From NCBI GenBank assembly GCA_934047225.1, contig OW204009.1:17310898-17374897 (forward strand): DNA of 64,000 nt. The letters are read 5' to 3'. Origin of the DNA: Ypsolopha sequella (taxonomy: Eukaryota; Arthropoda; Insecta; Lepidoptera; Ypsolophidae). Under the pieces are notes generated by a model, which had not been told where the DNA came from, made no database searches, and saw only the letters and a program-made list of their open reading frames with translations. Position 1 is the stretch's first letter, and the number at the start of each line of letters is the position of its first letter. The position numbers and the translations under genes are program-made. Below, one piece after another: positions 743 to 60,615 of the stretch.

Positions 743-802
743 CTGTAGAAAAAGTCCAGCCAGGAAAGTTATGGAGTAATCCAAAAAAAGTACCGACCAC
801 CG
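743..802 (+). CDS. Micro-exon A (alpha class, 60 nt)
   Basis: First repeat exon in the window. The acceptor is tttttcag and the donor gtaagt, phase 1 to 1. It encodes a repeat with core PGKLWSNPKKV and a tail ending Thr-Thr, one residue shorter than the usual 21. The alpha class has a Pro-Gly-Lys (or Pro-Val-Lys) core and a tail ending in Thr. Upstream exons must exist left of the window because this one begins in mid-codon. Confidence 0.8.
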
Positions 803-3800
803 GTAAGTTTATCGATATCCTAACAAATTTGCAGGCAGACATAAATTAACATTATATCATTGCAGTATAGAAACGCAGAAAAAAAGTAAATCTGGATGTG
901 AGCTCTGAACCGGGATTCGAACCCGGGACCTCTCGCTTACTGGGCGATTACCATAAATTTGCAGGTACCGCTAGTAAAAATAATATCAAAACCGGTCAAG
1001 TGCGAGTAGGACACGCGCCCTGAGTATTCCGTACCATTTTATTAGGTAAATTGTTTTTAACAAATAAGTTGTTAGGTAAATATTTGCTACCATCAAATTT
1101 ATTTTAAAATTGTTAATATATACACGTTCTTTATTATTTTCAGGTGAAGATAAAAGAATAGAACCGAAAAAAGTATGGACAAATCCCAAAACAAGATATG
1201 AAAAGGGTAAGAAGATTTATTACTTTCGACTCCTCGTGTACATTAAGGCGCTCTTATCCCAAAATCAGTAATTTCAAAGTCAAATAGAACTTTAAAATAT
1301 CGTCTAAAAAAAATATGCAATATAGTTCGAACCTTTATCTAGGTCTTCCACGCATGTGTTACACGATTAGATAAACTTTGCTCGATAGAAATAATTCACG
1401 AACACAGCATGTAATAAGACCTTTCAAATCATGCCATTTCCATAATTCCACTCTTTTATTAATGAAACATATCTGGTAATATTGCTCTTTAAATATTCTA
1501 GGTCGACCACGTAAGTGGGTTTTAATAAACATATCCCTTATTTTTAAACAATTAAAAAACCGATGAAAACAACGAAAAAGTACAAAATTGTGGTTATTTT
1601 CTTTACTCCTTACACGTAAAGAAAAAGACAGAGAGTCACTCTTCTGGGATAAGAGCGCCTTAAGCTCATTTCGGCGGCAGCGAGCAGGATAGTGCGCAGG
1701 AAAGTAAGCAGTGCAAGTATACAAGTAAGTATGCAAGTAACACGTCAGTCGCTGCTAGTGCCCCTGCTTCTCCATACCCGAAATTGGCCATCTCGCTTAG
1801 AAGTCCCAATAATACTCCTGCCTCCGTACTGTTCTGATTTGTCTAACCAACAGAATCTAGTGAAGTACATACCATAATAAATAAAATGTAAAAGAATCAG
1901 TAAAAGTTGTGTAGACATCACTATATTCTGGACGGGGTTTTTCAGGTCTTTCTTTGTATGTTTTTTTTTCTGAAATCTATCGTGTGGGGCAAAGCAAAAG
2001 CTTTATGAGCTGATTGTAAAAATGTAGTACATGTTTAAATTATTGCCACTCGTTTTCAAAACCATTATATTAAAATTAAACCAAGTTAATTTAATGAACT
2101 AGAAGCGACGTATTTTTATTAAAAACTTAATAAACACAGCGCTCCAAAAAAATAAATTATAATAAAATTATATTTTTGTCCACCATTGCTGGAAGTTGAA
2201 CGTGGAAGAAGTATGGAGACAGAATGTAAAAATTCACTAGCGTTTGCGCTGCCACAAAAGAAAATTGTAAGTAAATTGAGCAGTGGCATTGGCTGAGTGT
2301 AAACATGGTATAGGACGAAGATTTTTCATTAGTTTTCTTCCATCGGCATTTCTCTACGCCAGAGAATGGTGCTTGAGTCTGCATTTTGAATTGTATGAGC
2401 TACCGATTGGCGCGATAATGCAATCCATACAACATATTTGTTGAAAATAAAATTTGAGACAGATAATTATGGTAAATTTGGGGAAATATCGTCCAAATTA
2501 CAATATTTCACGTTTTATTTATATTGTCATGAAAGGGCTGTCAGAAGTATTTCTGAGTATCCTCTGCCCACGATGACGTAGACACGACATTTCATCGGTT
2601 AAGAACTATTACTATGTATAGACCGAGAACTCCCATACATCAAGGCGTAGTAAATTCTTTACGCGCCCTTACGACACTAGGTGTCGCCAATTGTTGTAAA
2701 TAAGCAGAATTTGTTTAATTGGCTGCAAGTAAACTGTCATGTCTACCAAGTGAACATGTGGCTGTAATAGCTTTGCTTAGAAAAACTAGATGGCGCTAAG
2801 TTGGCAAAACTAACAGTGAATATTTCAGCGCCATCTATTATCCAAATGGGAATTATTTTTATGTTACGTGACATCGCTGTGCCACTAGCGTCACCAATAG
2901 GCCTTTTTTAGCATCGTGTTCGTTAGAGGATTTAGCAACGCCATCTACATTTCGTTATAATTTTACACCTTTTATGTGGCTACAAACTGATGTATGGGAA
3001 CTACTAGTATATACGTAGTAATACTTAGTATATGGTTGTAAACCACAGTTTATCATGCTTTCCGCTACCGTAGACCAAATACAAATGAACCCCAATGGGA
3101 TTTGAACCGGCGACCACCGGATTAGTAACTAAGACGTATGGAGCAATAGACAACAAGGCAATCTTGTTTGTCGTAATTGTTAAATTATTACCATCCTACA
3201 TAAATAAAATGCTTTTTATATTAAGCAAAATATACCTTTAATGGAAAACTTAATTAAAATTATGAAATAATAAAAAAATATATTAATTACTACACAACCT
3301 GTATAAATTATTATTATTAGAGTGCATTACAAGTTTGTAATGGACTCTAACAATAATTAAAGTATTCAAAGCGATGGATTTTGCAATAAAAACATATAAA
3401 CAAATAAAAAACCTAATCTTGATTGTCCCTCCCGCATGGCAAGGTGCCCAAGGTACCTAAAGGGCCTGACACATCTTTGATTATACTTTATTGTACTATT
3501 TTCAGCTGCAGAAAAACAAGTCCCACCTGTTAAAGTATGGACAAATCCCAAAAAAGTTATAAAAACCAGTAAGTTCGTTGAGATCCTTAGACCTGATGAA
3601 TGACGGAGTTATTTTTTAAATTACTGTTCTGGTTCCAGAGTGAATTCTATATTATTCTATAATATAGTGAATCCTACTAAACATTTTTTCAGGCTTATTT
3701 AAATAGTATTCATTTTGAAAAATTCGAAAATCGTTGTTGTTTTCCAGTTTTCTTCACAAACTTCTCTTCAAGTGGCATATCGTTTTTTGGTCGCATTATT

Positions 3801-6800
3801 TTACGATTATTTTATCAAAGGTACACAAACTGTTAAATTTTTGCACTATCACACTTTGAACTATATAAACTATTTTTTATGGTTCCGTACCCAAAGGGTA
3901 ACCAACGGGACCCTATTACTAAGACTCCGCTGTCCGTCTGTCTGTACATCTGTCCGTCTGTCACCAGGCTGTATCTCATGAACCGTGATAGTTAGACAAC
4001 TAAAGTTTTCACAGATGATGTACTCGTATTTCTGTTGCCGCTATAAAAAAAATTACTAAAAAACAGAATAAAATAAATATTTATGGGGGCTCCAATACAA
4101 CAGACAGCCGTTTTTATAGATAATGGTACGGAACCCTTCGTGCGCGAGTCTAACTCGCACTTGGCCGGTTTTTCGAGGTATAATCTCCTGACTATCCTCC
4201 TATCTACCATCGCTTTGAAGTAAGTACATCCTAATAGTTAATGTAAAAAAAAAAAAAATTGATAGCTGTTCCAAAAATTATCTTCAATAGTAAAACATTT
4301 GATAGGTAAAAACAATCAACATAATTAATTACAATACAACTTAAAAATTTAGAACTTATAAAATAACTAAAACTAAAACTACTATAACATTAAAATGCCT
4401 AAAAAATAAACCTAATTAAGAAAATATTTGAAATTGATGCAAAGAAAGTTGCAGATACCACTAGAAATAATACAGTTGCAAATAGTATCGAACTTGAAAA
4501 AACGGTTTGAGTATTTTTATTTGTTTTCAGCTGAAGAAAAAAGTATAGATCCGAAGAAAGTATGGACAAATCCCAAAAAAGTACAAGAAAAGGGTAAAAG
4601 AATTTGTAGTTTTAAGCAATTATAATAATTAAAAAATGATAAGCTTTATATTTTTTCGATATATTTCGGCCTCACTGATGAGGCCGAAATATATCGAAAA
4701 AATATAAAGTTTATAATTTTTTAATTATTATAATTGCTTAAAACTACAAATAAAAAGCTAATTTAGCTAAAATTATATTTATTCATAAAGTAAAAGAATT
4801 TGCTAATATTGAAATTATTATACTAAATTCAGATTACTTCAGCGGCAGTAAGCAGGAAAGTATGTAAGCATGTAAGCAGCCACTCCTACTCTTTGGCGAG
4901 GCGCTCCCGAAAGTGTTCATCTTTCTTGCGGGAATAAAAGGGCCGGCGAGTACAAATACAGGTGTAAAGGGTTTATATGCTGCCCACTACCTCAATTGCA
5001 AAGGATATCAATATCAGACACCATCACATTTTGAAGCGACATAAAAAAAATCTCTTCAAGAACATTCATTTACTTATTAAGCACAGCGCTGTTTTCACAA
5101 AAATATATAATTAACCCATCGTTCCACAAAAATTGCTGAAAGTTGAGCGTAGAAAAAGTACGGGGCAGATTGTAAAAACTGCGTCGACGCTGCCACAGAA
5201 GTATAAAGGAAAGTAAATTAAGCAGTGATAAAGTTTTTATCTCTATACCTGATCTACCGCAATTTTTCTTCCTGGCGCGAGCTCTTGCCTGACTTTAGCT
5301 CTGTCAATATTTGCTTCCAGATGAAGAAAAAAGATTAGAACAGAAAAAAGTGTGGACAAATGCCAAAAAAGTAGAAGAAAAGGGTAAGGGAATTTTATTT
5401 CTATTGAAATCTTCCTAAGTGTATCTATCAAAATCCTTATACCTGTTAATGTTCCACCCGCGGCAGCGAGGAGGGCAGTAGGGAGGAAAGTGAGTAGTGC
5501 GAGTACATGAACAGATCTCCTGCCACTGCCACTGCCACTTCCACTGCCTGGCACGGCACTCCCGAGGTTAGCGGATATGAGTGGCAGTGTGAGCACGGGT
5601 GTAAAACGTTCGCAGTCTGATTGATTTTACAATTTAGGCTCTTACAGTGTTTTGTCAGAAATAAATTTTCTAAAATCAATTAATAAAAGCGATCAGTATG
5701 CGAACGCTTTACTTCCGTATCATTCAATAAACTTAACAAGCACAATACTATTAGAACAACAATAATTTGAGTCCACCATTACTTGGAGTTGAATGTAGAA
5801 TTACAGAGGCAGAGTGTGAACACTCGCGTCGCCGCTGCCAAGACGTATTTAGGGAAGTAAATTGAGCACTGTCATTGGTTGACTGTAAACGACGTACAGA
5901 TATTCCATCTAACAAAGTCCGTTTGTCTATGGTTGTAGCAGTAACGTGTAAACTGCTGCCGTTAATTCGAGAGAATGATGACAGATGGAGTGTGGCGATA
6001 TCTCGAAAAAATACTACAAGTCAACAAGAGCTTCTTCACGACAAAAATAAGTAAAGGCACGTTAAAAAATATCAACGGTACAACAAATGGGACGAAATAA
6101 ATCCAAATCATGATTATTTAAACTTTTTTTATAAATAAAAACCCTGGAATAGAATATATATACGATCTTATTATTTGGTAAGGTATATCAGTTTTATAAT
6201 ACGACAACACTGCCTTACACCGCAGATATTATAAACCTTTTTCTGAAATGTCGATTCAAAAAGTCGAGGATTCATACTGCAGGCATTATGATTGCTGATT
6301 TGACAGAAATAACTTGACACATTTTATTTATTAAACAAATAACTTCATTCGGCTTCTATCTTTGTATAATAATAAAATAAATAAATAAAATGACAACCTC
6401 TATAAAAGGTTCTTAAATTCAAGTGAACACAGTATCGCTAATAGACAACTTTTCGCCAAAAATAGTATTTTTTGCGCTTTTTTTTAACTTTTACGTAGAA
6501 ATTGAGTCAGCTGATTCATTAAGTTTTGTACTAGGAAGTGGAAAATATATACGACAAAAATACTTTTTATTAACAAATGGGACCTTTTAAACGATATACA
6601 ATCTACCCTAAAATCATCATGATAAATATAAAATATTGAAATGCAAAACAGTAAAAAAAAGGTTTTATCCCCTGACATTTGCAAACGTCACCATTCTCTC
6701 GAATGAACGGCCGGAGTTTTGTGTGTGACGCGTTTTGTAGCGCTCCTGAGGTTACGCTAATATCCACTACTACAACCATAGCTAACCAAACTTCGTGGGG

Positions 6801-15800: not shown

Positions 15801-16092
15801 ACCAGAAGTGGTATACAAATCATTTTAAAATAAACTTAACATCTTACAAACAAATGAGTTAGTATCACAACATCATTACATTTACGCAATCATTTTAACT
15901 ATATCAAATTGGTAAAAATGTCAATAATAATAAAATTACAACGAAATAAAATTAAATATGCATAAAATTATAAGTCTATATTAATTTAAAAATAAGTCCT
16001 CAAATGTATTACAATAGGTACCTTGCACCTTTGCCTTCTATGTTATTATATATGTACTGTGTTTTTATAATAATTTTCTTTGCAATAAAGTG

Positions 16093-16132
<40 letters not shown>

Positions 16133-25100: not shown

Positions 25101-26286
25101 TTTGCTTAGAAAAGCTAGATGGCGCTAAGTTAGCAACACTATCAGTGAATATTTCAGCGCCATCTAGAAAAAAAGGTAAATTTATCATAATCCTAGGCCA
25201 CCACACGCAAAAGCTTTACCACATTTTTTTTGCCTGCAGGCAAAATTTGGACAAATCCTATTGAATATACAGAACAGAGTAAGTTGAATTTTATATACCG
25301 ATGAGAACTATGTACAATAGTTGATACTTGCGATTGTTGGCTCTTGGTGAAACATCATCATGGATAAATAAAACAGTTGTACTGGTTCACAACTTATTAT
25401 TTCACTATTACCCAACTAGTTTCCCCTTGTCATATTCTTTGTATTACTTCCATCATAGAATTAGTATTACTACGTATAGACCGACAACTCCCATACACAA
25501 AGGCGCAGCAAATTTTTACGCGCTCATACAACACTAGGTGTCGCCAAGTGTTGCAAATAATCATAATTTGTTAAATAGGCTGCAAGTAAACTCTCATGGT
25601 TACTAAGTAAACATGTGGCTATAATAGCTTTGCTTAGAAAAGCTAGATGGCGCTAAGTTGGCAACACTAACAGTGAATATTTCAGCGCCATCTAGAAAAA
25701 AAGGTAAATTTATCATAATCCTAGGCCACCACACGCAAAAGCTTTACCACATTTTTTTTGCCTGCAGGCAAAATTTGGACAAATCCTTTTGAATATACAG
25801 AACAGGGTGAGTGGAATTTTATATACCGATGAGAACTATGTACGATAGTTGATACTTGCGATTGTTGGCTCTTGGTGAAACATCATCATGGATGAATAAA
25901 ACAGTTGTACTGGTTCACAACTTATTATTACACCTTTACCCATCTAGTTTCCCCTTGTCATATTCTTTGTATTACTTCCAACATACACTAAGTATTACTA
26001 CGAATAGACCAACAACTCCCATACATCAAGGTGCAGCAAATTTTTACGCGCCCTTACAACACTAGGTGTCGCCAAGTGTTGCAAATAAGCATAATTTGTT
26101 TGATTGGCTGCAAGTTAAATTTCATGGGTACTAAGTTATTATGTGGCTCTAATAGGTGTGCTTAGAAAAACTTGGTCGCGCGAAGTTGGCAACACTAATA
26201 ATGAATATTTCAGCACCATCTCTTATCAAAGTGGGAATTATTTTTAACCGACTTCAAAAAGGAGGCGGTTCTCAATTCGACTGTAT

Positions 26287-26320
<34 letters not shown>

Positions 26321-28119: not shown

Positions 28120-28151
<32 letters not shown>

Positions 28152-46100: not shown

Positions 46101-49100
46101 TATGCCTGTAGACAACAAAGGAGATGGATGACGATTTCGTGGACGCAGTGTGCTTATACTATTTATGTGCATGTAATTATTTTTTACATGAGCAACAAAA
46201 TATATCGAAAATATATATATATGGTTCCCCTTGCAGCAACTCAATAAATTCTAGGACGCATTCGTTACTCCAGTCCATTTTGAACGATCAAGCACGTAGT
46301 GTCTCACACAACCATTCCGTACAACAGCGCTCGCGCAACTGGTCTTTGCAAATAGTGTGGCAGGGTTGGATTTAGACCCTCGGAAAATTATTGTCTATGG
46401 GAGTTAAAAATATACTACTTGGCTAAAATTATACTACGTTTCGTTTTTCGTTGATTTTTGTTTTGAATTGAAATAAAAACAGCCTATTTGTTAGTGAATT
46501 AAAAAAAAAAAATTACTAATAATATTCATAATTTAATAAAATAGCTTATTTGTTATTGAAATTAAAAAAAAAAAAAAACTAAAAATATTCATAACGCACA
46601 GAAATTCCCTATATTGTAGGGTAAATGTTAAAAAGTAAAACGTCTCAACCAATAAAACAAGTCGGTCGGCCTGAAGATAAAATTATGCTATTTTTACGTA
46701 GTATAGTTCCATTACAATACTACATACTACATGTCATGAAAATATGGTACAAATAGTATAATTATACTACAAAATCCAACCCTGCAGGCCACGCACTTAT
46801 TTGAACACATTCCTTTGATGTGCGCTAAAAAACCGATACCGCTCGGCAAAGTGCAAATCTATGTACAAACTTTGGAACACATAGACAAAGTCTCGTGCCA
46901 CACAGTGTGTCCACTCGAGTGTTCAAATAAGTGTACATATGTCTGGCGCCGGCTTAACATGAGATCTGATAACGTTTTAACGATGGAAGCGTTATGAGCT
47001 TATGAATCTTGGCGACCTAGTTTACATGAAATGTTTTTGATGGGATTTCTTTGTCTATGTCATTATTTTGAATCAGAAACCACTATGATTTGCAGTAAAA
47101 GAAAGAGAACTCGAACCTGCAAAAATGTGGACAAATCCCGAATATGAAAAAAACTTGGGTAAGTTCTCAGACCAAATAAAAAAATGAAGACGTAGTTTAC
47201 ACCTTGTACGTAACGGGTGACGTGGGCCAAAAGTGAGACAGTTTCGTTTTCGTACACGTTTTGACACTCACACATGCGAAATCTGTCTCAGTTTTTTAGG
47301 GTTCCGTAGTACCTAAAAGGTACAAAAGGAACCTTATGGTGAGACTCCGTTGTCCATCCGTCCGTATGTCACAGCCTCATAACTTTGGATATGAAATTTG
47401 GCAAAAAAATAGCATTAATTTGCCCGAATATCACGGTGTTAAAAAAATATGAAAAATGACAATTATAGATCATAACTGGCCAATTACAGGAAAATTATAG
47501 CGATTAAAAAAAATTGAGCACAAATGAGAAATATTAAAAAAGAAGTAAAATAAATAAAAAAATATATTTTATAAAAATACAATATGGGTTTGATACCCAT
47601 ATTGTATATATATTTACAATCAAACTTTGATTACCTACAATTTGATACCCATATTGTATTTTTAGGATAATATTTTGATTTTTTTTTTCACTTTTGTTTT
47701 GAAAATATTTTGAACAATTTAATTTATTTTTTACTTTTTTTACACCTGGATATGTGGGCAAATTAAATGGTCAGAAAGAAATTTCTTTAAGGAATAGGTC
47801 CGCCCTTGCCTTCTGTGTTATCCTGTACTCTGTGTTTTTGTTCAAATTTTCTGTGCAATAAAGTGTTTATTGATTGATTGATTGATACTTCACTAACTCA
47901 TCACCAAAAAAGAAAATACTCTTTTAAACCCTACTTTTAAAACGGTCAGTAAGCATGAAACATTTTTGAACACAAGTAGATCTCTTTGATCATAAATTTG
48001 GACTTTGATAGATGGACGGCAAAACCCTAAAAATATAATTAATAATTCAAAATTCAAATTCAAATTCAAATAAAATTCAAATAGTTTTTTTTGCAAAGCA
48101 GGTATAGATATATACACTTTTTACACGTCAAATTTAATCTAATAATGAAAATATATGTAATAAAATAATAAAAATTATAATAAAATATATATAATACTAG
48201 CTGACCCGGCGAACTTCGTTCCGCCTAACAGTCTAATAATATCGTGTTAACTTTAGTTAAACTTAATTTAGGATTTCATTAAGGTAATAACATTAATACA
48301 ACTTTTTTGCAAATACAGAAATGTTTTATTGCTTGCCATTGCGAAAGAAGAATGGCAGGGACCCATGTAGTTTCAGTACCGTTGTAGGCTTAGCGTAGGG
48401 TATTGAATATATGCAGAAATAATAGTGCTTGGAATAACTAAGCGATTTTAAAACTTGGGGTTTAGATGTTATTTAATGATATCAGAACGCTAGATAAATA
48501 GGTTTCTTTTATATGCGTAGTTTTGTCAACAGATGGCACCACATGCTGTTTGCATTCGTAAAATTAATTGATTTATTTATTGTTATTCGATAACTTATCC
48601 GATATTTTATTACTTATTCTGCTATTCGGAGCGGATAAGAATACACCAAAAAAGAGATAACTAACATCGATCCAGCCGATCTTGAGTTATAAGTGGTGTA
48701 ACTAACACGACTTTGTTTTATATATTTAGATAATAATAATTATATAATAATAATAATAATAATAAAGATAATATAATTTATAATAAATAAATATAAAATA
48801 TAATAAATATATAATAATAATAATAAAAAATAATAAAATGTACATGAACTAAATTAAAGGTTTATTTAATTTATGTAGCAATACATTTACGATTAAAATG
48901 ATAGGTAAAATATAAAATAAACAAGGTAAAATCCAATCAGCCGCCCGAACCATTAAGTTATATAACTCAATTCCTATAACATAATTCCTCACAAATATAT
49001 TTCATTTTATTTAATTCATTTCACAGTTTGCATACTAACAATGAAACATTGTCTCAGGCATCAAGTCTGCGAGAAAGGTGCTACAACCATTGCTACATCA

Positions 49101-50179
49101 CAGCAATGTGAGATCAGGTAAGTGAAAGAGATAAATAAGCATTTCATCCATCAGCCTAGTTCGTCCACTGCTGGACATAAGCCTTTCCAGGACTTTGCCA
49201 CTACCGGCGGTCATCCTAGAAGAATTGCCCATACTCACGCACGCTGGGCAGGCGGGTTGGTGAGCGCGGTGCCGGAACCTTCGCAGCAGTGACGCCGCTG
49301 CCCGTCACCAGTCTGCTCCATATAAGGCCCGGCTATTAGAGATGGATATACCGCCATCCATCAGTCCCAGGAATGGTGGGCCTCCTGGTTTTTTGCCTGT
49401 GAGCTGTCCTCTTACTCTCCCCCGAATTACTTCGAGGGGGTCTCCAGGTAAGATGGTGGTACCTACACAGTCGAGCCCGGCATCAGCTCTACCACCTGTA
49501 ATATAGCATTTAAATGCGACAAAAAACATACAAAAAAGAAAAACGAACAAAAAAAGTATTTTGTTAACATATATACTTATGCACATGCTTCATTTGTAGA
49601 CATTGAAGAACAAAGGAATCAAATAGTTACCGGCCGGGAGCTGCTACTTAGAGTGTACCAGGATAAAGGTAATAATTTAGTTACATGGTACAGATCACGA
49701 AGTGCGTTTGGTTATGATTGTAGTAGTGCGGGTACACGCACTTTTTTCTACACACACAAAATGCGCTTATCCGTACACGTCGCTACTACAATCATAGACT
49801 AAGTACTTACGTATAGACCGACAACTCCCATACATCAAGGCGTAGCAAATTTTTTACGCGCCCTTACGACACTAGGTGTCGCCAAGTGTTGCAAATACGC
49901 AAATAAAGTAAAGTATTTAATTACTTCACAGCACGAAGACTAAGAGGAGAGGATGCTATCCCAGAAGTTGTTCGAAGGAGTGGTGACGCCATGATAAACA
50001 AAGTTATACTTTCACAAAACGCAGACACTGACAGGAAAGACTCCTATGAAAGAAATTCCATGAAAATGGGTAAAGAAGGCCAACACTCCATCGAGTATGG
50101 GCTCACCATAGAAGTGCAGGATGGAGCGATCCACAGGGTACATGACAGTTTTGGACAGAAAGACAGCTGGTTGTCATAA
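743..50179 (+). CDS. Micro-exon repeat gene, 3' part (29 canonically spliced exons)
   Basis: Seen: 29 short exons with AG acceptors and GT donors, all in one frame, each entered and left in phase 1. Lengths are 39, 45, 51, 54, 57, 60, 63, 69 or 465 nt, always divisible by three, and the last exon carries the stop at 50177-50179. Together they hold about 735 codons. Most encode one repeat, A-E-E-K-x-x-x-P-K-K-V-W-T-N-P-K-K-x-x-E-K, with Trp and Asn nearly invariant and the rest rich in Lys, Glu and Pro; the codon across each junction is usually Ala or Gly. No transmembrane segment is visible in the exons present. The product is probably a largely disordered, charged repeat protein with a unique C-terminal tail. 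Its function and location are unknown, and the 5' end lies outside the window. Symmetric exons allow frame-preserving alternative splicing; that is inferred, not seen. The general design resembles titin PEVK or schistosome micro-exon genes, but no sequence homology to either is claimed. Confidence 0.82.
900..955 (-). repeat. tRNA-derived SINE fragment
   Basis: Read on the minus strand, it contains a T-arm-like hairpin, cccgggttcgaatcccggtt, preceded by an anticodon-arm-like segment. No complete cloverleaf is present. A similar minus-strand fragment lies at 3088-3150. Confidence 0.5.
1144..1206 (+). CDS. Micro-exon B (beta class, 63 nt)
   Basis: Acceptor ttttcag, donor gtaaga, phase 1 to 1. 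It encodes GEDKRIEPKKVWTNP followed by a Lys-Thr-Arg-Tyr-Glu-Lys tail. The beta class has a Pro-Lys-Lys core. A GC-richer segment at about 1670-1745 in the following intron recurs after beta exons D, E, H and L. Confidence 0.85.
1243..1663. mobile_element. TTAA-bounded MITE (piggyBac-like)
   Basis: The ends are perfect inverted copies of TTAAGGCGCTCTTATCCCA, 421 bp overall, with TTAA at both borders as in piggyBac target sites. No coding capacity. It lies in the intron between exons B and C. Confidence 0.85.
1664..2599. other. Beta-type intron segment (first copy)
   Basis: The GC-richer block from 1670 (ggcagcgagcaggatagtg) and the block at 2180-2300 (ccaccattgctggaagttga, then sequence ending gctgccac) recur after exons D (4841, 5130) and E (5459, 5775), and in part after H and L. 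They are intron sequence co-duplicated with beta exons; no exon is found inside. Confidence 0.6.
2600..3035. mobile_element. MITE with 'tagtattactacgtata' termini
   Basis: The imperfect terminal inverted repeats contain tactatgtatagaccg and end actagtatatacgtagtaat. The internal text (agatggcgctaagttggc; tgacatcgctgtgccactag) is shared with many copies: 22717, 24409, 24930, 25460, 25990, 28540, 31495, 33643, 35838, 36700, 44211 (inverted) and 49786. Confidence 0.75.
3506..3568 (+). CDS. Micro-exon C (alpha class, 63 nt)
   Basis: Acceptor ttttcag, donor gtaagt, phase 1 to 1. It encodes a repeat with core PPVKVWTNPKKV and tail Ile-Lys-Thr. Its last exon base is A rather than the usual G, so the junction codon with a CT-starting exon would be Thr. 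The intron start shares 'gagatccttagacctgat' with sequence downstream of alpha exon K. Confidence 0.85.
3881..4173. mobile_element. Lepidopteran-type 'ggttccgtacc ... ttggccggtttt' repeat
   Basis: A complete copy of about 293 bp, from ggttccgtacccaaagggta to cgcacttggccggttttt. A second copy at 61545-63210 is inverted and split by a LINE insertion. I recognise this text as very common in moth and butterfly genomes. Confidence 0.75.
4531..4593 (+). CDS. Micro-exon D (beta class, 63 nt)
   Basis: Acceptor ttgttttcag, donor gtaaaa, phase 1 to 1. It encodes AEEKSIDPKKVWTNPKKV with tail Gln-Glu-Lys, close to the array consensus. The donor has A rather than G at +5, and a long hairpin (4603-4750) begins ten bases inside the intron. 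Confidence 0.88.
4603..4750. repeat. Long hairpin just inside the intron after exon D
   Basis: Two arms of about 70 nt, nearly perfect inverted copies, meet at tgat (4674-4678; cggcctcactgatgaggccg). The left foot is ten bases from the donor of exon D. It could be a small foldback element or a structured intronic RNA. Confidence 0.85.
5321..5383 (+). CDS. Micro-exon E (beta class, 63 nt)
   Basis: Acceptor ttgcttccag, donor gtaagg, phase 1 to 1. It encodes DEEKRLEQKKVWTNAKKV with tail Glu-Glu-Lys. The Asn-Pro of the core is Asn-Ala here, and the junction codon is Asp instead of Ala. It directly follows another beta exon, which breaks the alpha-beta alternation. Confidence 0.86.
5384..6863. 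other. Intron between exons E and F, left part
   Basis: It holds the beta-type segment (5459-5880) and then AT-rich sequence. No repeat exon, and no splice-flanked Trp core, is found here. Confidence 0.5.
6864..7504. mobile_element. TTAA-bounded foldback MITE with a nested insertion
   Basis: Left end ttaagagcggtttcgcagct; the right end is its inverted match and closes gctcttaa. Arms of about 165 bp are separated by a second MITE (7056-7316). Degraded copies of this element are embedded in each large P-Q duplication unit (for example 20930-21050, 29055-29150, 34480-34600) and at 38836-39010. Confidence 0.8.
7056..7316. mobile_element. Palindromic MITE nested in 6864-7504
   Basis: Inverted termini gtgtaacagaaaggtgtaac of about 55 bp each run almost to the centre. 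A second copy is at 61103-61378. Mirror-image open frames of 63 codons on both strands are a by-product of the palindrome. Confidence 0.85.
8128..8190 (+). CDS. Micro-exon F (gamma class, 63 nt)
   Basis: Acceptor ggttttcag, donor gtaagc, phase 1 to 1. It encodes a repeat with core SGKIWTNAKKL and tail Glu-Glu-Asn, the tail that defines the gamma class (F, G, M, N). A TA-flanked foldback MITE starts 27 bases inside the following intron. Confidence 0.86.
8217..8470. mobile_element. TA-flanked foldback MITE
   Basis: Starts tacaggatgttaagat and ends with the inverse gtcttaacatcctgta. Inner arms also pair (gcggaagccggaaac with the 8430 region). No coding capacity. Confidence 0.75.
8632..9096 (+). 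CDS. Exon G: ten in-exon repeats (gamma class, 465 nt)
   Basis: Acceptor gattttcag, donor gtaagt, phase 1 to 1, 155 codons counting the junction Ala. It contains ten consecutive copies of the Trp core. After a first copy (KKVWINPKK) come units of mostly 16 residues, PGKVWTNPKKGKDLEQ, which are 48 nt each; copy 3 is 14 residues and copy 10 ends in the gamma tail Gly-Glu-Glu-Asn. Copies 6 to 9 are almost identical at DNA level, which indicates recent expansion as a coding minisatellite. All length changes are multiples of three. Minus-strand open frames here are shadows of the repeat. Confidence 0.9.
9185..9333. mobile_element. Foldback repeat
   Basis: Inverted arms accgcgtaattctcat and atgagaattacgcggt flank about 115 bp. 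It is followed at once by another MITE remnant (9384-9512). Confidence 0.65.
9384..9512. mobile_element. Half copy of the 'tacaaggtgacttttgatca' MITE
   Basis: It matches the right half of the complete copies at 18666-18930 and 35307-35572 and ends aagtcatcttgta. The left terminus is missing. Confidence 0.7.
9962..10024 (+). CDS. Micro-exon H (beta-like, 63 nt)
   Basis: Acceptor cattttcag, phase 1 to 1. It encodes AEEKRISPKKVWTNPKIV with tail Gly-Lys-Ala. The donor gtattt departs from consensus at +4 to +6 (no gtaagt), so it is the weakest canonical donor of the early array and may be skipped. The following intron has the beta-type segment at about 10068-10130. Confidence 0.76.
10025..11114. 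other. Intron between exons H and I
   Basis: Beta-type segment near 10068-10130, then mixed sequence with short open frames on both strands, which I read as chance. No repeat exon. Confidence 0.45.
11115..11177 (+). CDS. Micro-exon I (alpha class, 63 nt)
   Basis: Acceptor gattcccag, donor gtaagt, phase 1 to 1. It encodes AEEKRLQPGKVWTNPKKV with tail Ala-Lys-Thr, a textbook alpha exon. Confidence 0.87.
11178..12435. other. Intron between exons I and J
   Basis: It contains a repeat fragment with 'gagcgaagcg' runs (11545-11640), fragments with ttcggtagtttt, and AT-rich sequence. No repeat exon is seen. Confidence 0.45.
12436..12498 (+). CDS. Micro-exon J (beta class, 63 nt)
   Basis: Acceptor tgtcttcag, donor gtgagt, phase 1 to 1. 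It encodes GEGEIMEPKKVWLNPKKV with tail Lys-Glu-Glu; Thr before Asn is replaced by Leu, as in exon K. The intron to exon K is only 102 bp, the shortest in the gene. Confidence 0.87.
12601..12663 (+). CDS. Micro-exon K (alpha class, 63 nt)
   Basis: Acceptor aaactttcag, donor gtaagt, phase 1 to 1. It encodes AEIKQIPPGKVWLNPHKI with tail Gly-Asn-Thr. The 3' end of the exon together with its donor is repeated four times in tandem (12651 onward, 29-bp period), so four identical donors compete. Confidence 0.85.
12651..12770 (+). repeat. Four-copy 29-bp tandem repeat carrying a splice donor
   Basis: The unit attgggaataccggtaagtt plus cacattcaa occurs four times. It starts inside exon K and includes its gtaagt donor. 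Each further donor would extend the exon by 29, 58 or 87 nt. Only the first and the fourth donor keep phase 1; the second and third shift the frame. Confidence 0.9.
12905..13531. mobile_element. MITE nested in a LINE fragment
   Basis: Termini agtgtgtccctcgtacaag and the inverse tgtaggagggacacact, TA target. It splits a LINE 3' fragment that is intact across 12769-12904 plus 13532-13600 and has a second copy at 48042-48955 (shared 'catgaactaaattaaaggtt'). Confidence 0.75.
14224..14638. mobile_element. MITE with 10-bp target-site duplication
   Basis: Termini agagttgccaac and gttggcaaccct are inverted, and the element is flanked by direct repeats actgcgtggt (14214-14223 and 14639-14648). Length 415 bp. 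A 10-bp duplication suggests a Mutator-like or similar superfamily; that is inferred. Confidence 0.8.
14978..15040 (+). CDS. Micro-exon L (beta class, 63 nt)
   Basis: Acceptor ttgttttcag, donor gtaagc, phase 1 to 1. It encodes GEGKIIEPKKVWRNPTTV with tail Asn-Glu-Glu. The following intron begins with the beta-type segment, part of which has been amplified into the 66-bp array at 15155-15738. Confidence 0.86.
15155..15738 (+). repeat. 66-bp tandem array, nine copies
   Basis: The unit starts cagtgagtgagcagtac and ends caacataattat; nine nearly identical copies. It derives from the GC-richer segment found after beta exons (compare 5490-5530). A minus-strand open frame of 270 codons crosses it only because 66 is a multiple of three. 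Confidence 0.92.
15739..16792. other. LINE tail remnants and intron sequence
   Basis: A LINE-type 3' end with AATAAA-like tgcaataaagtgtttattga and a (gatt)n tail is at about 16005-16131. A very similar tail is at 47800-47885. The 16410-16500 block (gagcgtagcgagtgtttt) is another dispersed repeat. No exon. Confidence 0.5.
16793..16855 (+). CDS. Micro-exon M (gamma class, 63 nt)
   Basis: Acceptor ttaattacag, donor gtaagt, phase 1 to 1. It encodes AEEKKYPPGKVWKNPKKA with tail Glu-Glu-Asn. The intron start shares 'gaacgccg' followed by 'agat' with that of exon G. Confidence 0.86.
16856..17560. other. Intron sequence with a dispersed repeat also found inverted at 44740-45430
   Basis: Shared blocks include gctaatttggcgacggtaat, cgatcgaattttgtcacttc and gggtactttctaaagcc. 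Two copies in opposite orientation suggest a mobile element about 0.7 kb long; termini were not resolved. Confidence 0.5.
17855..18210. mobile_element. Foldback element upstream of exon N
   Basis: Inverted arms of about 150 bp: ggttctaagctttcctcca pairs with tggaggaaagctaagaac, and gtagcaatcaatgtcaa pairs with ttgacattgattgctac. The right foot is about 20 nt from the exon N acceptor. Confidence 0.8.
18230..18283 (+). CDS. Micro-exon N (gamma class, 54 nt)
   Basis: Acceptor ctttttcag, donor gtgagt, phase 1 to 1. It encodes VGYDNSKLWENPVKSEEN, a divergent, shorter repeat that keeps Trp-x-Asn-Pro and the gamma tail. A foldback element ends about 20 bases upstream, next to the pyrimidine tract. 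Confidence 0.78.
18387..18548. mobile_element. Short foldback repeat
   Basis: Arms aaatagcaatgaacagtttt and tttcatagacaacgtct pair with agacgttgtctatgaaaac and aacagttcattgctattt. Confidence 0.75.
18666..18930. mobile_element. TA-flanked foldback MITE (tacaaggtgac family)
   Basis: Complete copy from tacaaggtgacttttgatca to aagtcaccttgta, with long internal complementarity. Sister copy at 35307-35572 and half copy at 9384-9512. Confidence 0.85.
18951..19140. mobile_element. Foldback repeat
   Basis: Inverted arms cacccaaacaaaatttta and aaattttttttgggtg, with inner pairs gttgccagcgttaatta and taattaacgctggcaac. Confidence 0.75.
19716..19766 (+). CDS. Micro-exon O (EQ-tail class, 51 nt)
   Basis: The acceptor is preceded by a long T tract (ttttttttttttcag). 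The donor gtcagt has C at +3. Phase 1 to 1. It encodes ARAHGKIWVNPVKFLEQ. The Leu-Glu-Gln tail links it to the Q and S exons downstream (tail Thr-Glu-Gln). Confidence 0.75.
19993..20353 (+). mobile_element. Dispersed repeat 'ggtggtagagctgatgccgg', copy 1
   Basis: A repeat of about 360 bp ending in (gatg)n. Other copies are at 34748-35062 (plus) and 49146-49498 (minus). GC-rich compared with its surroundings. Probably the 3' part of a retroelement; open frames within differ between copies. Confidence 0.7.
20547..20591 (+). CDS. Micro-exon P1 (Trp-less, 45 nt)
   Basis: Acceptor ttttcag, donor gtaaat, phase 1 to 1. It encodes AEINERANSKQPEKK, a shortened repeat without the Trp. The better-preserved copy P2 reads ERANPKKLEKK. 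It is first in a series of large duplicated units (P exon, then an internal MITE-derived segment, then a Q exon). Confidence 0.62.
21689..21751 (+). pseudogene. Micro-exon Q1 with TG in place of the AG acceptor (63 nt)
   Basis: This is a 63-nt open, phase-compatible repeat: Ala-Glu-Gly-Lys-Gly-Ser-Thr, then SGKIWTNPIEYTEQ. The donor gtaagt is intact. The base pair where AG should stand is TG (ttttttctg before CC GAG). The nearest true AG (gccgag) lies five bases inside and would shift the frame to an early stop. It is either dead or uses a rare TG acceptor. Confidence 0.45.
22503..22565 (+). pseudogene. Micro-exon Q2 with TG acceptor (63 nt)
   Basis: Same layout as Q1: ctttctg in place of the acceptor, donor gtgagt, open 63-nt repeat with core SGKIWTNPSEYTEQ. 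Using the internal AG (gctgag) gives a stop within six codons. Confidence 0.45.
22855..22917 (+). repeat. 21-bp tandem triplet inside a MITE copy
   Basis: Three perfect copies of the 21-bp unit that begins aactctcatggttacta and ends agtt, inside the MITE copy that starts at 22717. Single in other copies. Confidence 0.9.
23220..23264 (+). CDS. Micro-exon P2 (Trp-less, 45 nt)
   Basis: Acceptor ttttcag, donor gtaaat, phase 1 to 1. It encodes VEINERANPKKLEKK. It sits 14 bp after the right end of a beta-type MITE copy, which supplies the sequence just upstream of its pyrimidine tract. Confidence 0.62.
24159..24221 (+). pseudogene. Micro-exon Q3 with TG acceptor (63 nt)
   Basis: Acceptor position reads ttttctg; donor gtaagt intact. 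Open repeat with core TGKIWTNPSEYTEQ. It heads the 528-bp tandem array (Q3, S1, S2, S3). Confidence 0.45.
24712..24750 (+). CDS. Chimeric micro-exon S1 (39 nt)
   Basis: Acceptor tttgcttgcag, donor gtaagt, phase 1 to 1. It encodes Gly/Ser-KIWTNPIEYTEQ, the 3' two thirds of a Q exon. Its acceptor comes from sequence that lies in the intron after P exons (gctttaccac followed by a T tract and gcctgcag), so fusion restored a proper AG. Confidence 0.66.
25240..25278 (+). CDS. Chimeric micro-exon S2 (39 nt)
   Basis: Acceptor tttgcctgcag, donor gtaagt, phase 1 to 1; same coding content as S1 and exactly 528 bp downstream of it. Confidence 0.66.
25768..25806 (+). CDS. Chimeric micro-exon S3 (39 nt)
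   Basis: Acceptor tttgcctgcag, donor gtgagt, phase 1 to 1; encodes KIWTNPFEYTEQ. It lies 528 bp after S2 and is the last unit of the tandem array. Confidence 0.66.
26246..28192. mobile_element. Large foldback element with arms of about 0.95 kb
   Basis: Begins aaccgacttcaaaaaggagg and ends with the inverse cctcctttttgaagtcggtt. Arms carry matching poly-T and poly-A runs and several matching blocks (tgaccttcgatcctggcttc and its inverse). The centre is near 27220. It interrupts a MITE copy that resumes near 28536. The termini recur in many lepidopteran sequences as far as I recall. Confidence 0.82.
28193..28520. mobile_element. Second copy of the inner palindrome, with inverted loop
   Basis: It repeats 27061-27387 almost base for base in its arms (caaccgacttcaatagtaac and inverse). 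The central loop (28331-28372) is the reverse complement of the loop in the first copy (27200-27242). Confidence 0.82.
28732..28775 (+). pseudogene. Micro-exon P3, frame-broken (44 nt)
   Basis: Acceptor ttttcag is intact. The homologue of P2 has lost one A in the A-run before the donor (gaaaagaag, then gtaaac), so its length is 44 and it would leave phase 1. The Pro of NPKK is also Phe. Probably non-functional. Confidence 0.55.
29163..30785 (-). mobile_element. 5'-truncated non-LTR retrotransposon (LINE)
   Basis: Lies on the minus strand with its 3' tail at 29163-29180 (atgtt-type repeats) and a reverse-transcriptase coding region to its 5' truncation near 30785. Inserted in a P-Q duplication unit between P3 and Q4. 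Confidence 0.88.
29611..30778 (-). pseudogene. Reverse transcriptase fragment of the LINE
   Basis: Role: RNA-templated DNA synthesis for retrotransposition. Motifs in order on the minus strand: FLDLSKAFDTV (catalytic Asp) near the truncated start, FGVPQGSVLGPTLFLIYINN, then the catalytic box SYADDTVLL, and KYLGVLIDNTLSWKQH in the thumb. Two frameshifts, near 29896 and near 29820, interrupt the C-terminal part (ANRHYPSLSGRLYNK). The endonuclease domain is absent through 5' truncation. It resembles the Jockey-type group; exact clade unassigned. Confidence 0.9.
31251..31313 (+). pseudogene. Micro-exon Q4 with TG acceptor (63 nt)
   Basis: Acceptor position reads ttttttctg; donor gtgagt intact; open repeat with core SGKIWTNPSEYTEQ. 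It is followed 529 bp later by S4. Confidence 0.45.
31804..31842 (+). CDS. Chimeric micro-exon S4 (39 nt)
   Basis: Acceptor ttttgcttgcag, donor gtgagt, phase 1 to 1; encodes KIWTNPLEYTEQ. A 1.6-kb insertion begins 42 bases into the intron. Confidence 0.64.
31885..33500. mobile_element. 1.6-kb insertion in the S4 intron
   Basis: It splits the sequence 'gtacaatag|ttgatactt' that is continuous in sister units. The ends acttatccac and the inverse of gtggaatagt are weakly inverted. It includes a cgtcacacgact / gtcgtgtgacg pair and an inverted fragment of the 41325-type repeat. No long ORF. Confidence 0.6.
34100..34143 (+). pseudogene. Micro-exon P4, acceptor and frame lost
   Basis: This is the homologue of P2 with the acceptor changed from ttttcag to ttttcat, and with the same one-base deletion near the donor as P3 (44 nt). 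It encodes EINERANPKKLEK but has no usable AG. Confidence 0.6.
34748..35062 (+). mobile_element. Dispersed repeat 'ggtggtagagctgat', copy 2
   Basis: Closely matches 19993-20353; inserted in the P4-Q5 unit only. Confidence 0.7.
35307..35572. mobile_element. Foldback MITE 16 bp upstream of exon Q5
   Basis: Complete tacaaggtgac-type copy inserted at a TA between 'ttaatta' and 'tttgtttttttt'. It separates the Q5 pyrimidine tract from the upstream intron that is present in sister units. Confidence 0.88.
35589..35651 (+). pseudogene. Micro-exon Q5 with TG acceptor (63 nt)
   Basis: Acceptor position reads ttttctg. The alternative internal AG (gccgag in other copies) is also lost (gccgtg). The donor gtgagt and the 63-nt open frame are kept, core SGKIWTNPSEYTEQ. 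A foldback MITE ends 16 bases upstream. Confidence 0.42.
36139..36177 (+). CDS. Chimeric micro-exon S5 (39 nt)
   Basis: Acceptor tttgcctgcag, donor gtgagt, phase 1 to 1; encodes KIWTNPFEYTEQ. It lies 526 bp after the matching point of Q5. Confidence 0.65.
36448..36510 (+). pseudogene. Micro-exon Q6 with TG acceptor (63 nt)
   Basis: Acceptor position reads ttttctg; donor gtaagt intact; open repeat with core SGKIWTNPIEYTEQ. Confidence 0.45.
36819..36857 (+). CDS. Chimeric micro-exon S6 (39 nt)
   Basis: Acceptor tttgcctgcag, donor gtgagt, phase 1 to 1; encodes Gly-KIWTNPFEYTEK. The unit is shortened: it lies 347 bp after the matching point of Q6 instead of about 528, with the missing part inside the MITE-derived section. 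Confidence 0.63.
36912..37350 (+). repeat. 143-bp tandem repeat, three copies
   Basis: The unit starts tggcgcctattcaagtcaaa; copies begin at 36912, 37055 and 37198, with a partial fourth from 37340. Located between exons S6 and R. Confidence 0.9.
37519..37581 (+). CDS. Micro-exon R (63 nt)
   Basis: Acceptor atatttgcag, donor gtaatt, phase 1 to 1. It encodes AGEKRLEPGQVWTNPKYK with tail Glu-Asp-Glu. The donor is weak and lies at the foot of a hairpin (37583-37678). After the hairpin, exon-end-like sequence and a strong donor recur (aaaggatctgg, then gtaagt). Confidence 0.82.
37583..37678. repeat. Hairpin at the donor of exon R
   Basis: Arms attattactacacgcggctt and aagccgcatgtaataataat, with inner complement tgtgattgttg / caacaatcaca. 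The left arm overlaps the donor region of exon R. Confidence 0.85.
37682..38663. other. Intron between exons R and T
   Basis: Mixed sequence containing a spare donor-like gtaagt at 37692 and several short repeats. No repeat exon is seen. Confidence 0.4.
38664..38720 (+). CDS. Micro-exon T (57 nt)
   Basis: Acceptor gattcgtag (TAG), donor gtaaga, phase 1 to 1. It encodes AEGRDVGKIWINSKDSEDL, a divergent repeat keeping Trp-Ile-Asn. The TAG acceptor lacks a long pyrimidine tract. Confidence 0.72.
39127..39282. mobile_element. Foldback repeat
   Basis: Arms tatcgattcggtgtagcac and gtgttacaccgaatcgaca, with inner complement around gacgtcctgtctttg. Confidence 0.65.
40047..40452. mobile_element. TTAA-type MITE (gcgagtgggacgga family)
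   Basis: Left end ttaaggcgctacgtaaaag. The body matches the inverted copy at 58780-59581 and, less closely, 45620-45981 and 60192-60615. The right TTAA is not identified. Confidence 0.65.
40453..42936. other. Intron before exon U, rich in repeats
   Basis: Contains gagc-rich repeat text near 40460-40530, AT-rich sequence, the 41325-41802 repeat and a GC-rich block near 41940-42050. No repeat exon. Confidence 0.4.
41325..41802. mobile_element. 'ggttccgtagtacctaaaagg' repeat, complete copy
   Basis: Runs from ggttccgtagtacctaaaag to cgcacttggccggtttttt. Truncated copies are at 47299-47766 (plus), 32300-32965 (inverted) and 13900-14110. It shares termini with the shorter repeat at 3881-4173. Confidence 0.75.
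42937..42999 (+). CDS. Micro-exon U (63 nt)
   Basis: Acceptor aattcacag, donor gtaagt, phase 1 to 1. It encodes AEEGKLKPKKVWTNSKYI with tail Glu-Glu-Gln. It is separated from T by a 4.2-kb intron full of mobile elements. Confidence 0.84.
43000..44210. other. Intron after exon U
   Basis: AT-rich sequence with a short MITE terminus near 43063-43094 (tagtattactacgtacag in part). Nothing else is supported. Confidence 0.4.
44211..44602. mobile_element. Complete inverted copy of the 'tattactacgtata' MITE
   Basis: Starts actagcagttcccatacatc and ends acgtagtaatacttagtcta plus tgg; reverse orientation relative to 2600-3035. Confidence 0.8.
44740..45430. mobile_element. Dispersed repeat, inverted partner of 16940-17560
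   Basis: Shares cgatcgaattttgtcacttc, aaggcgattaccgtcgccaa and the gggtactttctaaagcc block, in opposite orientation. Confidence 0.5.
45620..45981. mobile_element. TTAA-bounded MITE (piggyBac-like)
   Basis: Ends ttaaggtgatataccgtg and the inverse cggtatagccccttaa, with TTAA on both sides. Length 362 bp. Same family as 60192-60615. Confidence 0.82.
45991..46957. mobile_element. TTAA-bounded element with a nested insertion
   Basis: Outer ends ttaaagccggcgccagacat and atgtctggcgccggcttaa. An inner element at 46361-46784 has ends cagggttggattt and aaatccaaccctg. No long ORF. Confidence 0.8.
47096..47158 (+). CDS. Micro-exon V (63 nt)
   Basis: Acceptor gatttgcag, donor gtaagt, phase 1 to 1. It encodes VKERELEPAKMWTNPEYE with tail Lys-Asn-Leu. 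It is the last exon that carries the Trp repeat. Confidence 0.84.
47299..47885. mobile_element. Truncated repeat followed by a LINE (gatt)n tail
   Basis: Left part matches 41325-41802 but lacks its right end. 47800-47885 is a LINE tail (gtgcaataaagtgtttattg, then gatt repeats) very similar to 16049-16131. Confidence 0.6.
48042..48955. mobile_element. LINE 3' fragment split by another dispersed repeat
   Basis: Outer parts match 12769-12904 and 13532-13600. The middle, about 48196-48730, starts tagctgacccggcgaacttc and ends ttatatatttagat, a repeat I recall as widespread in Lepidoptera. Confidence 0.6.
49027..49107 (+). CDS. Possible non-repeat exon W (81 nt)
   Basis: There is an AG acceptor (atttcacag) at 49026 and an open phase-1 frame with four Cys. 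The strong donor gtaagt at 49118 would end it in the wrong phase (91 nt) and lead to a stop in exon X. The weaker donor gtgaga at 49108 keeps phase 1 (81 nt). It could be a real linker exon, an alternative exon or chance; there is no repeat motif to support it. Confidence 0.3.
49146..49498 (-). mobile_element. Dispersed repeat 'ggtggtagagctgat', copy 3
   Basis: Reverse-oriented copy of 19993-20353, in the intron before exon X. Confidence 0.7.
49600..49668 (+). CDS. Penultimate exon X, non-repeat (69 nt)
   Basis: Acceptor catttgtag, donor gtaata, phase 1 to 1. It encodes Asp, then IEEQRNQIVTGRELLLRV, then Tyr-Gln-Asp-Lys, probably a helical segment. It lacks the Trp repeat but fits the frame and phase of both the array and the terminal exon. 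Confidence 0.74.
49710..49903. mobile_element. Foldback followed by a MITE half copy
   Basis: Arms ttatgattgtagtagtg and gctactacaatcata (49710-49795) run directly into a 'tagactaagtacttacgtat' MITE left half (to 49903), 29 bases before exon Y. Confidence 0.65.
49932..50179 (+). CDS. Terminal exon Y with stop codon
   Basis: Acceptor tacttcacag. It enters in phase 1 and runs 81 sense codons to TAA at 50177-50179. It begins ARRLRGEDAIPEVVRRSGDA and ends DSFGQKDSWLS. Polar and mixed-charge throughout, with no membrane segment and no family I recognise. Candidate polyadenylation signals AATAAA occur at 50278-50288, but they overlap an A-rich repeat. It gives the protein a unique C-terminal tail. 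Confidence 0.8.
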
Positions 50180-60191: not shown

Positions 60192-60615
60192 TTAAGGGGG
60201 TATATCGTCAATATCGACACTTTTTGAAGTTATTTATCTGCTGTTCAAAAGTAGTCCCAAGTTAAATAAATTATTATAACAATTTTGGGACCTTTTTCTA
60301 CATTTTGGTCTATCAGAAACGCGATTGGAGGAATTTCACTCGATAGAAATAATTACTGAAATGAGGTCTAAATTTACACTTTTTTTGATATTCTGACAAA
60401 TTGGAGTAGTATACGCACTTCAAAAATATTTACTGAGATGGGTTTTAACAATACCTAAATTACTGGAAATGGAAATTTTCATAGCTATTTTAGTTAATTT
60501 TTTATTAATTTAAAACCGACATTTTGTCAATTTTCCCCGATTCCATCCCTCTCGCAGCGCGGATCTTTCCGCCTGGAGAAACGGAGACCTTTGCACGGAC
60601 GATATATCACCTTAA
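60192..60615. mobile_element. TTAA-bounded MITE (piggyBac-like)
   Basis: Ends ttaagggggtatatcgtc and the inverse gacgatatatcaccttaa; 424 bp; related to 45620-45981. Confidence 0.82.

Follow-up and report, generated by a model that had tools for sequence, protein, structure and literature searches.

The lepidopteran Ypsolopha sequella carries, on contig C26 (OW204009.1) of its 866.8-Mb assembly (151 contigs), a gene assembled from short symmetric exons that each encode a copy of a Trp-Asn motif, and this architecture is both real and unusual. The gene lies on the + strand of the window, by which we mean the whole stretch of 64,000 nucleotides that was analysed (C26:17310898-17374897); positions are given relative to its first letter and are negative upstream of it. 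The recognised locus is the 3' part of one gene, which is longer than the stretch examined. Judged from its sequence, the gene is very probably translated, into a product that is probably charged and disordered, and we lean towards the view that it encodes a PEVK-like, disordered, extensible and multivalent tether that grows by exon duplication.

Architecture and extent of the exon array

Thirty-one motif exons were found in the window, all on the + strand between 743 and 47158 (Table 1), and a profile scan of both strands returned none on the - strand of the window. An earlier note on this DNA had described 29 such exons; the array holds, but the count is 31, including one exon of 465 nt. The other 30 are short (39-63 nt) and comprise 14 exons of 63 nt, seven of 51 nt, six of 39 nt and one each of 60, 57 and 54 nt. 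Exons start at codon position 2 and finish after codon position 1, and phase 1-1 and a length divisible by three, as had been claimed, are found in 31/31 window exons and in 44/44 motif exons when those upstream are included. The earlier note had also reported AG/GT borders throughout: the GT donor is present in all 31 window exons, but six young exons lack the ancestral CAG acceptor.

The window's left edge cuts the array. Sequence was added on both sides of the window (180 kb upstream and 50 kb downstream, giving 294 kb examined in all), and 13 further motif exons were found at -57354 to -1088, within 57 kb upstream, one of which (-45989) has a GC donor. The whole array thus amounts to 44 motif exons with about 53 motif copies, and begins at or before C26:17253543. 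The repeat variants that had been placed over 49 kb are present, but their extent is larger: with the 3' exons included, the array spans at least 107.5 kb. Four candidates for a first exon were found between -180 and -57 kb, none of them convincing and none with a hydrophobic stretch. At the other end, a stop does close the frame as had been claimed, but in the second of two unique 3' exons rather than in a single one, and an A-rich, AATAAA-like run follows about 100 nt past this stop. Joined end to end, the window exons encode 812 residues without interruption, 707 of repeat and 105 of tail. The name micro-exon gene is loose here, since the exons of schistosome micro-exon genes (MEGs) measure 6-36 bp.

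Two tandem repeats lie beside motif exons. At 12649-12769, the last part of exon 12601-12663 and its donor recur in a perfect tandem repeat of 29 bp (4.2 copies), so that there are four successive GTAAGT donors, of which, by eye, the second and third would shift the frame and the fourth lies after a stop. A 66-bp tandem repeat (15152-15738; 8.9 copies, 99% matches) is located in the intron after exon 14978-15040. In the surrounding sequence, diverged inverted copies at 184-437 and 60325-60578, 74% identical and transposon-like, lie near both window ends; a 975-bp pentanucleotide array of the form (TTGTA)n-(TTGTG)n-(TTGTA)n at 62099-63073 adjoins an apparent transposon end; and open frames at C26:17213877-17220652, about 95 kb upstream of the window, look by eye like an LTR element.

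Table 1. Exons and exon-like copies of the array in window-relative positions; upstream motif exons (negative positions) were found by profile and splice-aware scans
Feature	Position	Strand	Remarks
Upstream motif exon	-57354	+	
Upstream motif exon	-54622	+	
Upstream motif exon	-45989	+	
Upstream motif exon	-33870	+	
Upstream motif exon	-25501	+	
Upstream motif exon	-23468	+	
Upstream motif exon	-21776	+	
Upstream motif exon	-15390	+	
Upstream motif exon	-12004	+	
Upstream motif exon	-6842	+	
Upstream motif exon	-6404	+	
Upstream motif exon	-2462	+	
Upstream motif exon	-1088	+	
Motif exon	743..802	+	60 nt, KLWSNP
Motif exon	1144..1206	+	63 nt, KVWTNP
Motif exon	3506..3568	+	63 nt, KVWTNP
Motif exon	4531..4593	+	63 nt, KVWTNP
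Motif exon	5321..5383	+	63 nt, KVWTNA
Motif exon	8128..8190	+	63 nt, KIWTNA
Motif exon	8632..9096	+	465 nt; in-frame 48-nt minisatellite, 10 motifs (PGKVWTNPKKGKDLEQ)
Motif exon	9962..10024	+	63 nt, KVWTNP; donor weak
Motif exon	11115..11177	+	63 nt, KVWTNP
Motif exon	12436..12498	+	63 nt, KVWLNP
Motif exon	12601..12663	+	63 nt, KVWLNP; then 29-nt tandem repeat repeating donor
Motif exon	14978..15040	+	63 nt, KVWRNP
Motif exon	16793..16855	+	63 nt, KVWKNP
Motif exon	18230..18283	+	54 nt, KLWENP
Motif exon	19716..19766	+	51 nt, KIWVNP
Trp-less copy, open	20547..20591	+	45 nt, ERANS
Young motif exon	21701..21751	+	51 nt; CTG at ancestral acceptor site, AAG in frame retained
Young motif exon	22515..22565	+	51 nt; shifted acceptor
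Trp-less copy, open	23220..23264	+	45 nt, ERANP
Young motif exon	24171..24221	+	51 nt; shifted acceptor
Young truncated motif exon	24712..24750	+	39 nt; new acceptor, probably intron-derived
Young truncated motif exon	25240..25278	+	39 nt
Young truncated motif exon	25768..25806	+	39 nt
Trp-less copy, decayed	28732..28775	+	44 nt; 1-nt deletion, frame lost
Young motif exon	31263..31313	+	51 nt; shifted acceptor
Young truncated motif exon	31804..31842	+	39 nt
Trp-less copy, decayed	34100..34143	+	acceptor CAT and 1-nt deletion
Young motif exon	35601..35651	+	51 nt; shifted acceptor
Young truncated motif exon	36139..36177	+	39 nt
Young motif exon	36460..36510	+	51 nt; shifted acceptor
Young truncated motif exon	36819..36857	+	39 nt
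Motif exon	37519..37581	+	63 nt, QVWTNP
Motif exon	38664..38720	+	57 nt, KIWINS
Motif exon	42937..42999	+	63 nt, KVWTNS
Motif exon	47096..47158	+	63 nt, KMWTNP
Unique 3' exon	49600..49668	+	69 nt, phase 1-1, DIEEQRNQIVTGRELLLRVYQDK; single genomic locus found
Terminal exon	49932..50179	+	82 aa, then TAA; single genomic locus found

Specificity of the locus

The 294 kb were searched for symmetric phase-1 exons (27-180 nt) by a splice-aware scan whose weight matrices had been trained on 31 of the exons. All 39 rows fell on the + strand (14 at -58 kb to 0 and 25 at 0 to 50 kb), with none on the - strand and none outside the array, although the window exons are partly training data. These rows represent 35 distinct candidates, namely 34 motif exons (12 upstream and 22 in the window), four of which were listed twice with alternative starts, and an unrelated candidate at 22161. 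The scan missed ten of the 44 motif exons: the 465-nt exon, which is too long for it, the exon with the GC donor, 9962, 42937 and six with shifted acceptors. A stricter first scan, trained on window exons only, gave seven upstream matches, all of them repeat exons, and none on the other strand.

Single sites are comparable on both strands, with 413 donor-like sites on + vs 345 on - and 277 acceptor-like sites on + vs 251 on -. At thresholds of 5 and 5, phase-1 rows inside the array numbered 18 and 32 on + vs 3 and 1 on -, compared with 9 and 4 on + vs 7 and 3 on - outside it. Scans in the other phases over two array intervals gave 7 and 12 rows on + vs 0 and 1 on - for phase 0, and 5 and 4 on + vs 1 and 1 on - for phase 2. 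Several motif exons remain open when read in phase 0 or 2, and most of these + rows are known exons in another frame; it is thus the Trp-Asn frame common to the exons, rather than the scan, that fixes the phase.

Searches of the 867-Mb genome with an exact pattern, the 465-nt exon and the tail found no second cluster. The pattern GTNTGGACNAAYCC gave 65 matches in 867 Mb, the same number as its reversed control; the 11 matches on C26 all lie inside the window on one strand, while those on other contigs are scattered. The 465-nt exon (P0001) matched itself at E=4e-93 and gave 52 far weaker rows (best 1.7e-8). This search did not list the gene's other motif exons and is therefore blind to lone diverged exons elsewhere. 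The tail matched only itself. Among the 52 weaker rows, three loci that were opened (L059, L061 and L062) proved to be unrelated minisatellites.

Evidence for translation and constraint

The coding frame of the 30 short exons is free of stops in 523 codons, vs 23/553 and 42/523 in other frames, a count that is partly circular as the exons were selected as open. When the changes among the 14 exons of 63 nt were placed at random, a mean of 8.2 stops resulted and none of 2000 trials was stop-free. Neutral simulation on the tree of the same 14 exons gave 8.8-9.1 expected stops, with stop-free alignments in only 0.2% (GTR) and 0.1% (GTR+G) of 1000 (P=0.001-0.002), and in 0/1000 simulations were Trp and Asn present in all copies. 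Both residues are retained in every old copy in the window. A DNA profile scan of the window that ignored reading frame returned no broken Trp-Asn copy and only two broken copies of the Trp-less kind; the decay of two among the four Trp-less copies shows that broken copies do persist, and the intact state of the Trp-Asn exons is thus informative. Among 15 old copies, exon identity was 0.70 (shuffled 0.55), whereas the intron flanks of the same copies were at chance level, at 0.515 and 0.516 (shuffled 0.507 and 0.504).

A comparison of synonymous and nonsynonymous changes had been set beforehand in the earlier note as a possible refutation, and its outcome, taken literally, is neutral-like. The synonymous fraction of changes was 0.201 vs 0.188 under random placement (P=0.33), and pN/pS was about 0.8 (0.82 on the 15 old exons), the three frames showing no clear difference. 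We do not read this as refuting translation, because the conserved core leaves little synonymous room and because the other tests reject neutrality; Trp has one codon. The translated product that had been argued for is supported, as very probable, by stop avoidance, by Trp and Asn retention and by the exon/intron contrast, the synonymous fraction giving no support. We read the pattern as spacers that are nearly free to vary around a frame and core that appear to be strongly constrained, and RNA-level constraint on the purine-rich exons could contribute.

That the array is a transposon-borne or satellite repeat without a product, its open frames being accidental, is very improbable. The neutral look of the synonymous fraction would fit such a repeat, as would the block at 20-37 kb, which is largely duplicated with transposon-like sequence, but stop avoidance and splice sites speak against it and the failure to find a second cluster disfavours it. 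The confinement of the GTNTGGACNAAYCC matches on the contig to one strand of the window, a total no higher than the control, and the unrelated nature of the P0001 loci that were opened point the same way.

Growth of the array and the young block

Along the first twelve short exons, the position three residues ahead of Trp switches between Lys and non-Lys at 10 of the 11 steps (P=0.013, with Val at 3506 counted as non-Lys and the 465-nt exon excluded), which suggests that exon pairs were duplicated before their introns diverged. The block at about 20-37 kb has expanded recently, its units being mostly 85-95% identical in DNA, and much of it was duplicated along with transposon-like sequence. 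Duplicated exon units at one locus bear out the proposal of the earlier note that repeat number changes by exon duplication. A reverse transcriptase fragment (29885-30706 on the - strand; Pfam RVT_1, E=2.2e-16) lies inside this block.

Six young exons (21701, 22515, 24171, 31263, 35601 and 36460) have CTG in place of CAG at the ancestral acceptor. Each of them retains an AAG in frame 12 nt downstream, and five have an earlier out-of-frame AG; the AAG acceptors of these 51-nt exons are weak, and all six fail the splice-aware scan. The six 39-nt exons have a strong new acceptor and all pass the scan, four with acceptor scores of 13.9-18.0, these four being among the matrix training exons. By eye, the sequence before the acceptor of the 39-nt exons appears to derive from the intron following the Trp-less exon, joined to a motif exon at a few shared bases, and the other end of the unit seems to meet a transposon-like CGCCATCTAG end; the new acceptors would originate from intron sequence. 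The four Trp-less copies read CGG GCA AAT in place of TGG ACA AAT, and two of them (20547 and 23220, 45 nt each) are open.

Divergence of the young exon cores, at 4.6%, is only slightly lower than the 6.4% of their introns (seven copies). The codon after WTNP occurs in four states (Ser, Ile, Phe and Leu) among the 12 young exons at 21701-36857, all of them amino-acid changes, and few other sites vary within the last 37 nt, a hint that this one site may be diversifying.

It is doubtful that the array is partly decaying, with the older exons used and the young block at 21-37 kb consisting mostly of skipped pseudo-exons. The six exons that lack the ancestral acceptor and fail the scan, together with the two decayed Trp-less copies, are what such decay would leave, but 12/12 young Trp-Asn exons retain the frame, the donor and an in-frame AG, and the 39-nt exons pass the scan.

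Protein product

The motif is K-[ILVM]-W-x-N-P, and its core is changed in two exons (Trp to Leu in -33870, Asn to His in -57354). Over the 44 exons, with the 465-nt exon entered as one unit, Lys is found in 42, the aliphatic residue in 44, Trp in 43, Asn in 43 and Pro in 35. The peptide per exon is 12-22 residues long, and a Trp recurs every 13-21 residues. The repeat part of the window model contains 18% Lys, 13% Glu, 9% Pro and 5.7% Trp, and Cys is absent from all 812 residues of the model as well as from the 13 upstream peptides. For the window exons, PEVK content drops from 54% over the first 405 residues to 35% thereafter, and exceeds 40% in 315/458 windows of 250 aa (range 0.32-0.54).

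In the Uversky charge-hydropathy plot, the repeat part falls on the disordered side. AlphaFold2, run on single sequences, gave a pLDDT of 49.7 for the 465-nt exon, with only 4-residue strands at the KVW cores, and an uninformative 49.6 for the terminal exon, a low pLDDT without an alignment being weak evidence of disorder. The composition, the position on the Uversky plot, the absence of Cys and the low hydrophobicity agree with the modular, charged and possibly disordered protein that the earlier note had envisaged.

Homology searches and comparison with known genes

No described family with this repeat had been known to the authors of the earlier note, and none emerged from Pfam, predicted-protein or text searches. 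In Pfam, neither the tail nor the first seven exons had a match that reached the cut-off, and matches to the repeat were weak and below it. Searches of 5.8 billion predicted proteins gave nothing at E<=10, with 7995 and 1 candidates scored; because just one candidate shared a word with the tail query, insect proteins may be few in the protein database. A literature text search for WTNPKK, with most subscription papers outside its scope, returned no paper and no mention of the repeat. Nine ankyrin-like PDB matches of the tail (best E 2.5e-05), mostly engineered proteins and with no stretch passing alone, were rejected as chance, and the matches of the pattern to contigs of viruses and prokaryotes (5 and 21 stretches) were likewise put down to chance, the pattern being so degenerate.

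None of 149 I-set matches lies on C26 (genome-wide, 150 of 632 candidates scored); I-set clusters are located on C30, C11, C24, C3 and others, and one regular expression found no Ig signature in six frames of the 294 kb. With the I-set clusters, among the candidates scored, on other contigs and no Ig signature in the 294 kb, the gene is neither sallimus nor projectin. In an I-set run at C11:27333054-27341459 the domains are spaced almost evenly, about 400 bp apart, an arrangement that resembles the Ig-linker pattern of kettin/sallimus and would place that gene on another contig.

In mouse titin, 47 PEVK exons encode 1586 aa (PMC6300359), and of 363 coding exons counted for titin in another source (PMC9222585), 311 are symmetric. 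The array gene shares with the PEVK regions of titin and sallimus its many small symmetric exons, a charged sequence that is PEVK-rich in its older part and would be extensible, and a length set by repeat number. In contrast, however, it has no Ig signature nearby and lies on another contig than the I-set clusters, nearly all of its motif exons carry the Trp-Asn core, and its tail is short and unique. That it is the PEVK segment of the I-band titin sallimus is hardly credible: symmetric small exons, the PEVK content of the older part and the majority of 250-aa windows above the 40% criterion of PMC12063666 fit, but the lack of I-set matches on C26 among the candidates scored, of an Ig signature in the 294 kb and of a Pfam match in the tail does not. 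Projectin of Lepidoptera (PMC3835035) also has a PEVK region of short, partly alternatively spliced exons, but one with no repeating pattern and placed between Ig tracts, whereas the array gene repeats and shows no Ig signature in the 294 kb.

More broadly, the array might be the variable spring or linker of a known large gene whose conserved domains lie >120 kb upstream or in unrecognised exons. That no 5' end was found in the stretch examined favours this, but the 122 kb upstream of the array contain no strong symmetric phase-1 exon, and neither the Ig search of the 294 kb nor the I-set search, the only domain searched genome-wide, linked the locus to one. We regard this reading as unlikely, if well short of negligible.

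Among genes with very many short exons, PMC9168663 describes one aphid megacycle gene with 118 exons over about 100 kb, encoding an internally repeated protein of 15 repeat units with no obvious CYC and no orthologue found outside aphids. The array gene resembles bicycle and megacycle genes in its very many short exons and in their start at codon position 2 (44/44 exons, one of them 465 nt), but bicycle proteins carry CYC motifs and the array gene encodes no Cys, and, unlike megacycle, it has one repeat per exon. Schistosome MEGs, according to PMC5825161, have symmetric exons of 6-36 bp that form most of the coding region, and their products are almost always secreted or membrane-exposed; short symmetric exons form most of the coding region here too, but they measure 39-69 nt, with one of 465 nt. 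Numerous short repeating exons are also found in the modular zonadhesin-like (Zon) silk genes and in a caddisfly PEVK-like silk protein, and the Trp-Asn motif is absent from the silk-protein descriptions in the accessible parts of both sources (PMC9432349, PMC11092239). As described there, Zon silk proteins are Cys-rich with EGF-like patterns, whereas the array gene has no Cys and no Pfam match above cut-off; the caddisfly protein is similar in its PEVK-like composition, but is a 57-kDa protein mainly of E, A and V.

These resemblances leave, as an improbable but serious alternative, a secreted protein of the salivary or silk gland, comparable to that of aphid megacycle or to the products of modular silk genes, with exon duplication diversifying an adhesive or effector. 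The exon number, extent and repeat protein of megacycle, its salivary expression and the codon-position-2 start of bicycle exons (PMC9168663) favour it. The absence of Cys in the encoded part makes the product neither CYC nor Zon-type, and none of the four first-exon candidates between -180 and -57 kb has a hydrophobic stretch, although the true first exon may lie elsewhere.

Proposed function

A tether would be the most economical reading of the composition and the invariant core. The nearly invariant K-aliphatic-W-x-N core would act in docking or self-association, with the spacers setting the reach and charge of the tether, each exon contributing one motif copy (ten in the 465-nt exon) to a chain that would close with the unique 105-residue tail. 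Since every exon is symmetric, gain, loss or skipping of an exon alters length and valency and leaves the frame intact. We infer expression, disorder in vivo, binding and the use of splicing, which the earlier note had also suggested as a way in which repeat number might change; no binding partner is derivable from the sequence.

More tentatively, and in a form that we hold with less than even confidence, the gene may be a lineage-restricted giant that arose from a single 20-residue exon and encodes a disordered scaffold unrelated to titin, with at least 50 K-aliphatic-W-x-N-P docking motifs and a valency set by exon number and tissue-specific skipping. The region at 21-37 kb would then represent ongoing exon birth, in which truncated exons with an intron-derived acceptor at a microhomology-like in-frame join have spread with the surrounding 528-544 bp.

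Significance

Repeat proteins growing one symmetric exon at a time are represented mainly by titin, nebulin, megacycle and the schistosome MEGs, and the array gene is an independent case of exon-by-exon growth in which each exon carries one motif. Because of this arrangement, a single locus allows selection on the motif to be distinguished from selection on the spacers, the frame or the splice sites, with old, young, truncated and decayed copies lying side by side. A gene consisting almost entirely of exons of 39-63 nt could easily be missed by gene finders and protein databases. If the product is indeed a multivalent tether, copy number would be a readable measure of valency, and the pace at which such a scaffold is remodelled would emerge from a comparison of related species.
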